Origin: a virus
Strand: one strand, 5' to 3'
Length of the DNA: 64,000 nt
IMG/VR virus record: IMGVR_UViG_3300032050_000061
Span: 1-64,000 of that record
The notes under the pieces were generated by a model. It ran no database searches. It was not told the origin of the DNA and worked only from the letters and a program-made list of their open reading frames with translations. Position 1 is the stretch's first letter. Each line of letters begins with the position of its first letter. Both the position numbers and the translations under genes were made by a program. Positions 32,029 to 53,729 of this stretch are shown piece by piece.

Positions 32029-33390
32029 TTACCCCATATTATCTACATATTTTTTATGCAGTAGTTGTTTTTGTAAAAGTTCTCCATTCTTAGCTTCTTT
32101 ACTAGCGATGATTCCATTTGGAGAATTATTTGCATATACTTCTATAATACCTTTATTAGTGTTCATCTTTGCAGGAAATGTCATACCATCTTGCCCAAAT
32201 CGGTTTTTCATAATGTGAAAACGAGCCGTATCATTTAGTTTATCGGTATCCTTTCTACTAACTGATATAATTAAATCGGCATTCATTACCTTTGCGTATG
32301 AATCTGCAATCTTATCTGCCTGAATTACTTCGGAATCAATTGCACTTCTATTTGTTTGCGATGCAGTCCAAATTGGTATTTGATACTCACCACTTAAAGC
32401 TCTTAAATCAATATAAATCCCCCCCTGCTCAGCGTAATCAGAATTATTTTTTGAATTAGTTGATACCAATAAATCTGCATAATCTATAATAATTAAATCT
32501 GGTTGAAACTTTGTTTGCCTAACCATATCAACGTGCGCAGCAATTGTATTGGCGGTAATACCTTTTGGTGGATAGTATTTAATAATCAATCCTCCTTTTA
32601 GTTTATCTACCTTTTCTCTGATTTCATCTTTATGTTCTTTTAAATCAGCTGATGGTATAGATGTGAAAATAGTATCATATCTCTGCCCAACATAATTTTG
32701 TGTAAGTTCCAAAGTGTAATGTAATACATTTTTACCTTGTCTTACCGCTTCCGCTCCTATATGTGATAATACCCAAGTCTTACCAACACCGGAAGGTGCT
32801 ACAATAACTCCTAATTCACCTGGCCCCAATCCTCCATCGGTCAATTCATCAATAACATCCCAATTTGTAGCAACGGTTCTCCTATTTACTTCTTCAAAAC
32901 GAGCTTCAAGTTCTTCTTTATAATCCAATCCCAAATCAGCAGTCTGCCCAACTTTAACGGCATCCCTAACCATTTTTTCAATCTTTTCAAATTGACCGGT
33001 TTTTAATAATTCAACTGAATTTAGGATTACATTTTTAAAGTTTTGGTTTTTACAAAATGTTACAAATTCAGTTTTTACCCATTCTTTATCAGAATGTTGT
33101 GTGTTTTGATACACTGCCTTTAATTGCCCAACTACATTTTGTTGTAATGTATTATCGGATATTTTTTGAACTTCGGTTTTAAAGAAATCGGTAGTTGGAA
33201 TGTTTTTGTATTTGTGAAAATACTTCTTTGTTAAATCAACAATCCATTTATTCGTATCTGCTTCAAAATATTTTGTTTCTAATATATCGGATACTTGTTC
33301 TAAAAAAGTTCTATCAACAACTAAATTAGCTACAACCTTTGTTTGGTAACTTTGACCATATTTTGATAGATTATCTACAGCTTCACTCAT
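32029..33390 (-). CDS. gp41: Replicative DNA helicase (T4 gp41/DnaB-like)
   Basis: A 453-residue hexameric helicase. The RecA-like motor domain begins near residue 175 with DELTDGGLGPGELGVIVAPS; Walker A is APSGVGKT (198-205), and Walker B is around LIIIDYADLL with the motif around DLIISVSRKD further on. The N-terminal helical region (1-150) corresponds to the DnaB N-domain that binds primase. The host-type promoter at 33395-33426 ends only 4 nt before the ATG, so its message would start close to the start codon. It moves the fork together with gp43 and gp45; no primase gene was seen in this window. Confidence 0.92.
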   Translation of the reverse strand: MSEAVDNLSKYGQSYQTKVVANLVVDRTFLEQVSDILETKYFEADTNKWIVDLTKKYFHKYKNIPTTDFFKTEVQKISDNTLQQNVVGQLKAVYQNTQHSDKEWVKTEFVTFCKNQNFKNVILNSVELLKTGQFEKIEKMVRDAVKVGQTADLGLDYKEELEARFEEVNRRTVATNWDVIDELTDGGLGPGELGVIVAPSGVGKTWVLSHIGAEAVRQGKNVLHYTLELTQNYVGQRYDTIFTSIPSADLKEHKDEIREKVDKLKGGLIIKYYPPKGITANTIAAHVDMVRQTKFQPDLIIIDYADLLVSTNSKNNSDYAEQGGIYIDLRALSGEYQIPIWTASQTNRSAIDSEVIQADKIADSYAKVMNADLIISVSRKDTDKLNDTARFHIMKNRFGQDGMTFPAKMNTNKGIIEVYANNSPNGIIASKEAKNGELLQKQLLHKKYVDNMG

Positions 33391-52743: not shown

Positions 52744-52767
52744 ATGAGAGTTATCTATTAACTCTCA
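52744..52767 (-). terminator. Terminator-like hairpin at the end of the frameshift frame
   Basis: A 9-bp stem (tgagagtta at 52745-52753 with taactctca at 52759-52767) around a 5-nt loop. On the minus strand it is followed by TTTTATTTTA. The stop codon of the hidden reading frame (TAA, 52751-52753) lies in the stem. A terminator exactly here implies that translation is expected to end here, which supports the frameshift product. Confidence 0.6.
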
Positions 52768-52990
52768 CTTTAGATGGGGTTTTTGGCATTGATGATTTTT
52801 TTACAGCTTTATTATTAGCCTCATTTTCTTTCTTTTTAGCATCTACCAATTTGTTGTAATAAAAATTTCTCAAATGTATTGGCATATTGTAGATTTCAGA
52901 TTGAGTGAATCCACCATTACCATAATAACATATATCAAAAATTTGAGAATGTAATATTACTGAATAATTAGATGGAAGGGTAAAAAAACC
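52751..52990 (-). CDS. Frameshift extension of the gp26-like protein (gp51-like/GT-like C-terminus)
   Basis: This frame has no start codon until ATG 52885, yet its coding pattern begins earlier: FDICYYGNGGFTQSEIYNMP followed by IHLRNFYYNKLVDAKKKENE, a pattern I associate with phage tail assembly proteins. It is open only after a TAG at 52991-52993. The gp26-like frame ends at 52968. Within this 23-nt overlap the message reads GGG TTT TTT TAC, with seven U. A +1 (or -2) slip there joins the frames and gives a protein of about 325 residues. Nothing else would express the conserved part. The position, just before the tape measure gene, is that of the classical G/GT chaperone pair. Confidence 0.65.
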   Translation of the reverse strand, partial: GFFTLPSNYSVILHSQIFDICYYGNGGFTQSEIYNMPIHLRNFYYNKLVDAKKKENEANNKAVKKSSMPKTPSKVRVNR

Positions 52991-53729
52991 CTACGCCCAT
53001 AGGAATCGGGCGTACCTCCTTTTCTCCACTCTCGGGGTCTTCATATTCATATTCCATTACTATATCTGGCTGAAAGGTTTTTATAAACTCTCTCAAAGCT
53101 CTAGTATCTCTTGTTACGAATTTATTATTAATAAAATCTATAATACTCTTTGTATCAGTTTTTCCATCAACTTCAACTATGATGAATCTATATCTAGTTG
53201 TTAATTCGGCACTTACTCCACTTTTATTCAACTTAGAAAGTGCTTTAATTTCCTCATCGATTTTTTGCTCATCACCATGTGATAACAACTTTATCACTAA
53301 ATTATAGCCCGATGGGGTTTTGAAATTATATCTATTATCTCTTCTTAATATTGATGTATCTATTTCCTTTGTTTGTACTTTTGATAAATCAATTTTTACC
53401 GTTTCCTTTTCGTCTCTACTATTTAAAATCTCAACTTCATATGAAGGACCATATGCTAAGATTCTTGTTGCTAGCATAATAGCGTTTTTATCACCAACTA
53501 TGATATCAGCTGGATTAATATCCTTATCAACGATAATTGATTCGAATAATTTATCTAAAACTATTCCTTTTTTAATTAAATTTTGTGATGCTAAAATTTC
53601 TTCTTCTTTAGCAGTCATATACTTAATTTCAACCGTTCCTTTTGATAGAGGATTAGATTCGGGATAAACTTTACCTTCTGATGGTAATGATATAACCTCC
53701 GTTGGAAAATCGTATTTTTGTTCTTGCAT
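52968..53729 (-). CDS. gp26: T4 gp26-like baseplate/tail assembly protein
   Basis: A 253-residue protein. The opening VISLPSEGKVYPESNPLSKG, the block EIKYMTAKEEEILASQNLIK and VGDKNAIMLATRILAYGPSY match the T4 gp26 baseplate family. T4 gp26 is a baseplate hub factor that is not clearly present in the finished particle, so a chaperone role is likely. The last residues (GVGFFYPSI) are encoded over a run of seven T, where a frameshift into the next frame (52751-52990) is proposed. An AT-rich leader with no Shine-Dalgarno sequence precedes the ATG. Confidence 0.8.
   Translation of the reverse strand: MQEQKYDFPTEVISLPSEGKVYPESNPLSKGTVEIKYMTAKEEEILASQNLIKKGIVLDKLFESIIVDKDINPADIIVGDKNAIMLATRILAYGPSYEVEILNSRDEKETVKIDLSKVQTKEIDTSILRRDNRYNFKTPSGYNLVIKLLSHGDEQKIDEEIKALSKLNKSGVSAELTTRYRFIIVEVDGKTDTKSIIDFINNKFVTRDTRALREFIKTFQPDIVMEYEYEDPESGEKEVRPIPMGVGFFYPSI

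Follow-up and report, generated by a model that had tools for sequence, protein, structure and literature searches.

A conserved +1 reading frame at the end of a gp26-like gene points to a frameshifted pair of tail assembly chaperones in the T4 gp26/gp51 family

Does a viral gene that resembles T4 gene 26 always end at its stop codon, or do some of the ribosomes that translate it continue in another frame? The question is raised by a DNA stretch of 64,000 nucleotides (nt), positions 1 to 64,000 of the IMG/VR virus record IMGVR_UViG_3300032050_000061 (this whole stretch is called the window hereafter), in which the end of a gp26-like gene overlaps a second, hidden open frame on the minus strand. 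The original prediction, made from these letters alone, proposed that the gp26 family supplies the two tail assembly chaperones of a T4-like phage and that a +1 or −2 slip joins the two frames. A comparison of related loci supports this proposal and favours the +1 shift: at the level of sequence, it shows two conserved frames, a constrained slip site, selection on the hidden product and a position before the tape measure gene. We consider it very probable that the locus encodes a short and a long chaperone, the latter made by +1 frameshifting.

The gp26-like open reading frame (ORF) of the window runs from 53729 to 52968 on the minus strand and codes for a protein of 253 amino acids, the putative short tail assembly chaperone (TAC-N). 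The hidden frame opens at 52990, directly behind a TAG codon (52993-52991), and ends at a TAA stop (52753-52751); read as a C-terminal extension of the gp26-like protein (52990-52751), it would complete a long form (TAC-NC) of 325 amino acids. The two frames overlap by 23 nt, and inside this overlap the zero frame reads GGG UUU UUU UAC, with seven consecutive U (U7) at 52988-52982. The first ATG of the hidden frame lies at 52885, behind the beginning of the conserved part, and neither ATG nor GTG nor TTG is found ahead of a Y-x-MP motif. A terminator-like hairpin (52767-52744; −11.0 kcal/mol, 10 bp counting one extra base) contains the stop codon of the hidden frame and is followed by TTTTATTTT. 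In all these particulars, from the end of the gp26-like frame to the hairpin around the downstream stop, the original prediction was borne out.

Relatives of the locus were collected by a first scan (26 relatives), by two further scans and a third that started from L115 (for which the matches listed were used), and from public phages. This gave at least 271 stretches with a gp26-like stop, the window included, 201 of which are distinct, as some contigs are repeated (L115 and L229, for example). L043, L170 and L267 were dropped because no gp26 stop lies inside their stretch, and L228, which is phage SP-15 again, was left out. The site finder required a pair of Phe-Phe/Leu codons and found one in 199 of the 201 distinct stretches; L032 and L307 are without a +1 site, and all slip-site counts given below refer to the 199 distinct sites. 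Phage BRock (L034) was read by eye and stands outside the 199; RaK2, Atu_ph07 and PA5oct were also read by eye. Nucleotide-level signals were assessed in two sets: 69 loci, more than 15% apart, that represent the clade of the window, and 141 wider representatives that exclude L030, L031, L032, L035 and L307.

Counted from the slip codon, the +1 frame extends over at least 55 codons without a stop in 197 of the 199 distinct sites; in the two exceptions (L053, L209) the end of the contig cuts it off. The −1 frame is open over the same length in 12 sites. A motif search over the 271 stretches located the C-terminal part in +1 in 257 cases and in −1 in a single case, and overlooked it in 13; among the latter, nine as well as L030, L031 and L035 all have it in +1, and L032 in −1. 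In the hidden frame (66 nearest-neighbour pairs), the proportions are 0.135 for non-synonymous (pN) and 0.470 for synonymous (pS) differences, a pN/pS of 0.29; by this measure the hidden product is under purifying selection. Its conservation begins at the slip, and an alignment of 44 sequences shows no variation at F3, L5, Y34, P37 and R41. AlphaFold2 predicts three helices for this part, with a predicted local distance difference test score (pLDDT) of 80.1 and a predicted template modelling score (pTM) of 0.56.

The slip sites fall into a few sequence classes: UUU UUU UGG (83 sites), UUU UUU UAC (72, the form of the window), UUU CUU UGG (28), UUU UUU UAU (6), UUU CUA UGG (4) and UUU CUU UAC (1), together with the single cases UUU CUA UUC (L002), UUU UUU CAC (SP-15), UUC UUU CGU (GXN1), UUU UUU AGU (LIS04) and UUC UUU UAC (L115). 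Each of the 199 sites contains UUU followed by U or C, which permits perfect re-pairing of tRNA-Phe one base ahead, and likewise each allows the P-site re-pairing YUU-Y that characterizes slip sites of the prfB type; BRock also has UUU C. The original prediction had suggested an alignment of related phages to see whether the U7 run and the +1 frame are kept. The frame proved to be conserved almost throughout, and both features are present in 26 of the 26 relatives from the first scan; U7 occurs in only 161 of the 199 distinct sites. With 38 sites lacking it, U7 is not essential. Individual codons of the slip site, like those of the GGAGG element described below, are held against the codon bias.

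These variants bear directly on two other ways of reaching the hidden frame. Were the polymerase to stutter on the run of seven T behind a terminator-like hairpin, transcripts with one U fewer or two more would have the frames joined, and the frequency of U7 as well as the hairpin that ends a few nt ahead of the run in many representatives would fit such transcriptional slippage. The slippage site of the Roseiflexus IS630 element is a terminator-like stem-loop. This element is named as a bacterial precedent for transcriptional slippage in a 2016 review (PMC5009743). A long homopolymer run kept across the family, as this mechanism would demand, is not what the 38 sites without U7 display: their longest U run is three in 35 sites, four in one and six in two. 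The conservation of GGAGG is left unexplained as well, and we regard transcriptional slippage as quite improbable. A ribosomal −2 slip, as in phage Mu or arteriviruses, would reach the same frame, and the UUU of the window can re-pair two bases back; across the family, a move two bases back leaves the first two positions of a slip codon unchanged in 163 of the 199 sites, as against 199 of 199, at one of the two slip codons, for a move one base forward (the latter count following in part from the construction of the finder), and the chances of a −2 slip appear slimmer again. The slip-site variants therefore speak against both as the mechanism of the family, and both were rejected as the main mechanism on this ground. 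Hence, a +1 slip is favoured by sequence comparison for the family as a whole; for the window taken alone the choice is less decided. The direction is not the same everywhere. In L307 (2680-2740) the same C-terminal part is found in −1, preceded by A AAU UUC, which we take to be a standard −1 heptamer, and L032 also has it in −1; in these two stretches the direction of the apparent shift changes and the out-of-frame extension stays.

No start codon is conserved ahead of the slip or of the conserved part in the relatives compared. In 20 of 108 loci, the window among them, there is no ATG, GTG or TTG between position −30 and the motif, and elsewhere the positions of such codons vary. An ATG at +34, present in many loci, falls inside conserved helix 1, and a start at 52885 in the window would leave only the third of the three predicted helices. 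The original prediction would have been undermined by a homologue with its own start codon and an intact conserved part, or by a frame that is not conserved; neither turned up in these loci, except that an own start is formally possible in Mel-JY01 and some others, which have a TTG or GTG on the 5' side of the slip. In the public annotations inspected, the C-terminal part is cut down, missing or begun upstream: it starts at an internal ATG, and is thereby truncated, in immuto (L029, 4851-4961) and SP-15 (L030, 4809-4928), starts at an internal TTG, again truncated, in BRock (L034, 3695-3877), and for Mel-JY01 (L001, 3989-4225) is given a TTG start that lies 5' of the slip. A small gene of its own in the hidden frame, with an unusual or internal start, as these annotations assume and as the frequent ATG at +34 might suggest, is the least probable of the explanations considered, and an own start codon was rejected as the main mechanism on the survey of start codons and the predicted helices. 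An out-of-frame extension across the 3' end of the gp26-like gene without a conserved start, as seen by this comparison, is a feature of chaperone pairs of the G/GT type known from phage lambda.

Two elements beside the slip site, absent from the original prediction, are candidate stimulators of the +1 shift: an internal GGAGG resembling a Shine-Dalgarno (SD) sequence (53019-53015, minus strand) and, directly 5' of U7, a hairpin of 8 bp (53014-52992, minus strand; −11.4 kcal/mol). In the window, GGAGG stands 29 nt before the P codon, with the hairpin in between. Its position is kept at −34 to −30 in 64 of the 69 clade representatives; the Glu codon concerned is GAG in 67 of these 69, compared with a GAG usage of 17%, and 108 of the 141 wider representatives have GGAGG within −42 to −27. 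The hairpin follows GGAGG in the 69 clade representatives and stops a few nt short of the slip. For its region (−33 to −7), folding energies relative to synonymous shuffles give a mean z of −1.70 in these 69, and 27 control windows further upstream have a mean z of −0.12 (standard deviation 0.14, lowest −0.39). Sixteen other representatives with GGAGG have a mean hairpin z of −1.34, and 30 without it have −1.28. Both elements are thus conserved at the nucleotide level in the window's clade, as far as the comparison reaches, and neither is universal; their description is new here. A model of strict looping-out, with the distance between GGAGG and the slip fixed by the hairpin, found no support: the hairpin does not always begin at the same place on its 5' side, and in L057, L069 and L077 it includes part of GGAGG itself. 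Since GGAGG is missing in some representatives and the hairpin signal is uneven, the two are likely to be aids rather than requirements.

The host suggested for the window lends these elements a particular context. Of 54 start codons in the window, 2 are preceded by motifs of the SD type (GGAG, GAGG, AGGA), compared with 11.7% at random places, and this avoidance suggests a Bacteroidota-like host; immuto infects Flavobacterium, and Mel-JY01 was recorded from Microcystis. In Bacteroidia the anti-SD sequence is sequestered, and yet the Flavobacterium johnsoniae prfB gene retains AGGAGG ahead of its +1 site (PMC8710568). An upstream hairpin that adjoins the ribosomal E site can mimic an internal SD duplex and stimulate +1 slippage on 70S ribosomes in vitro without release factor 2 (RF2) (PMC6321510); by analogy, and less firmly than for the frameshift as such, we infer a similar stimulatory part for the hairpin of the window type.

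The affiliation of the gp26-like protein rests on profile and structure searches. It matches phrog_150 ('baseplate hub') with an E-value of 4e-10, and this profile also collects T4 gp26 (6.7e-71) and gp51 (2.6e-84), of which gp51 consists of a gp26-like body and a C-terminal extension. PF12322 was matched by the proteins of L002, L030, L031, L034 and L035, and at E 1 neither by the window protein nor by those of L001 and L029. In BFVD, the AlphaFold2 model of the shared N-terminal part (pLDDT 89.7) matches proteins of the baseplate hub and of its assembly from T4-like phages; it had no match in the PDB at E 0.001, and the fold comparison with solved chaperones gave a Foldseek E-value of 0.73. 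For the hidden part, the best BFVD match of the model (E 8.2e-3) missed the threshold of 0.001; on the profile level this part aligns with the extensions of homologues from Firmicute phages (hhalign E 1e-7) and with a profile of gp51 C-termini together with the C-terminal parts that lie out of frame in S-PM2, HTVC008M, Vi01 and phiW-14 (E 6.6e-6). None of 200 column shuffles reached the score of that profile (highest 16.5 versus 31.0; one shuffle ended in a program error). By these profile comparisons, the hidden part is homologous to the C-terminus of gp51. The phrog_150 profile matches S-PM2 and HTVC008M twice, with the C-terminal part in another frame, and this part is in the −1 frame in S-PM2, HTVC008M, Vi01 and phiW-14 and, as read by eye, also in RaK2, Atu_ph07 and PA5oct; in T4, gp26 and gp51 are encoded by two separate genes on opposite strands. 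Therefore, one pair of a short and a long protein appears to be made in three ways. A separate observation concerns Leptospira phage LE4, of which two proteins with neighbouring accessions (A0A343LED6 and A0A343LED7) match the model of the N-terminal part (E 1.1e-5) and, weakly, that of the hidden part (E 0.39); judged from these models, they are perhaps likewise a split chaperone.

The neighbourhood of the gene is that expected for a chaperone pair of the G/GT type. Tail sheath and tail tube genes lie upstream (tube gene 55447-54956, minus strand; PF06841, E 6.2e-8). Downstream, behind a single ORF of 99 amino acids (52733-52434), follows a candidate tape measure gene of 805 amino acids (52419-50002, minus strand), whose match to TMP_3 (E 0.0053) is below the Pfam cut-off, and immuto and LIS04 have an annotated tape measure gene at the corresponding place. 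With a conserved out-of-frame C-terminal part and its kinship to gp51, the locus therefore looks like a lambda G/GT-type chaperone pair before the tape measure gene.

We propose that the gp26-like protein serves as the short tail assembly chaperone and that some of the ribosomes that arrive at UUU UUU U near the end of its gene slip one base forward. The peptidyl-tRNA-Phe would leave its UUU and pair anew with the UUU that overlaps it, the following codon (UAC in the window, UGG or UAU in relatives) still waiting, and the slipped ribosomes would read 76 codons of the hidden frame to yield the long form. By analogy with gpG and gpGT of lambda, the shared part may hold the tape measure protein and the extra part may recruit the tail tube protein; the hairpin near the E site, whether or not GGAGG precedes it, might promote the slip as an internal SD duplex does. 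That slipping takes place, with what frequency, that it is +1 and translational, and that the products act as chaperones is what we infer from the compared sequences.

Several observations weigh against this interpretation. The codon in the A site after the slip is a sense codon, in prfB it is a stop, and a hairpin-dependent +1 shift was seen solely without RF2 (PMC6321510). By sliding means over 12 codons, codon conservation in the gene is highest outside the slip region, and the signal resides in single codons. GGAGG is absent from 33 of the 141 representatives, and the mean hairpin z is just −0.63 in 21 immuto-type representatives. Covariation within the hairpin (141 representatives, with shuffles that ignore relatedness) is mixed: the pairs −19/−10, −23/−6, −24/−5 and −25/−4 exceed the shuffles, −22/−7 goes in the opposite direction, and three of nine pairs of a second hairpin register exceed them. 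The HK97 chaperone 2ob9_B is a weak structural match to the shared part (Z 4.0, root-mean-square deviation 3.6, 79 aligned residues), practically tied with 5ir0_B, a protein from a phage-inducible chromosomal island (Z 3.7), and against gp51 C-termini alone the hidden part is not significantly similar (E 0.33, also 0.27).

Many uncultured phages show the +1 arrangement, as do isolates on record from Flavobacterium, Microcystis, Bacillus, Listeria, Streptococcus and Streptomyces. One family hence answers a single need in three ways, by +1, by −1 and by duplication, and it is the family from T4, the exception named in the review (PMC5009743), that itself exhibits the +1 arrangement. Should a stimulatory role of the hairpin and GGAGG be borne out, +1 slippage could be studied in these phages as it occurs in nature, on ribosomes that initiate without SD pairing. 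We tentatively go a step further, with somewhat less than even confidence: in phages of hosts whose ribosomes ignore SD sequences at start codons (probably Bacteroidota), the refolding of the hairpin next to the E site, often fronted by GGAGG, may drive a +1 shift at a sense codon and so constitute a natural bacterial hairpin-based +1 stimulator; the +1 form may also be an old state of the gp26/gp51 family, with the duplication in T4 and the −1 sites of cyanophages as alternative outcomes.

Two features elsewhere in the window are recorded here for their own sake. An ORF of 428 amino acids (59510-58224, minus strand; no Pfam match at E 0.01) contains an internal stretch, CLHLDEDVLMADGTTKKAGDLVEGD ... 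VNGFVTHNKG, which by its motif resembles a domain of the Hint/intein type. A run of seven C at 32419-32425 is unusual for DNA with 32% G+C.

How does the locus compare with known systems? Frameshifting of G/GT-type genes is widely conserved in tailed phages, with −1, −2 and +1 shifts and T4 as the exception (PMC5009743). The author of the original prediction was not aware of a description for T4-like phages; such chaperones were in fact identified by Vladimirov, Gautam and Davidson in 2022, and articles that cite this work mention T4-like phages with one short and one longer, fused chaperone copy (PMC10885494) and poly-T −1 signals in T4-like TAC-N genes (PMC12846349). Frameshifted and duplicated chaperones of T4-like phages are thus already known; what appears new, on the sequences compared, is a T4 gp26/gp51 family with a +1 overlap and a clade-specific context of hairpin and GGAGG. 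Nowhere in the literature searched, the scope of which left out most subscription journals and the text of Vladimirov et al., did we find a +1 site described for this family.

With T4 gp26 and gp51 the locus of the window shares the phrog_150 part, the existence of a short and a long form and a related C-terminal part, but T4 has separate genes on opposite strands and the window a +1 overlap; in S-PM2, HTVC008M, Vi01 and phiW-14 the C-terminal part is in −1 instead. The likeness to lambda gpG/gpGT, a matter of arrangement, lies in the place before the tape measure gene and the out-of-frame extension at the 3' end (PMC5009743), although lambda shifts by −1. HSTV-2, a haloarchaeal myovirus whose chaperone is very likely made by a +1 shift (PMC5009743), is comparable in the direction of the shift; its host is an archaeon. 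The prfB gene for RF2 slips at YUU-U with an upstream SD-like sequence, as the window would, and UUU-U variants of it exist (PMC12421855); the F. johnsoniae site reads AGGAGGUAUCUU UGA C (PMC8710568). It differs in that the SD-like sequence is 3 nt before the P codon, not 29 nt with an intervening hairpin as in the window, where moreover the A site holds a sense codon. Also comparable are the reporters of Huang, Cho and Chang (2018), with a hairpin just 5' of the +1 site that mimics an internal SD duplex (PMC6321510); these were constructs at CUUUGA, effective only without RF2, whereas the hairpin of the window is a conserved natural element.
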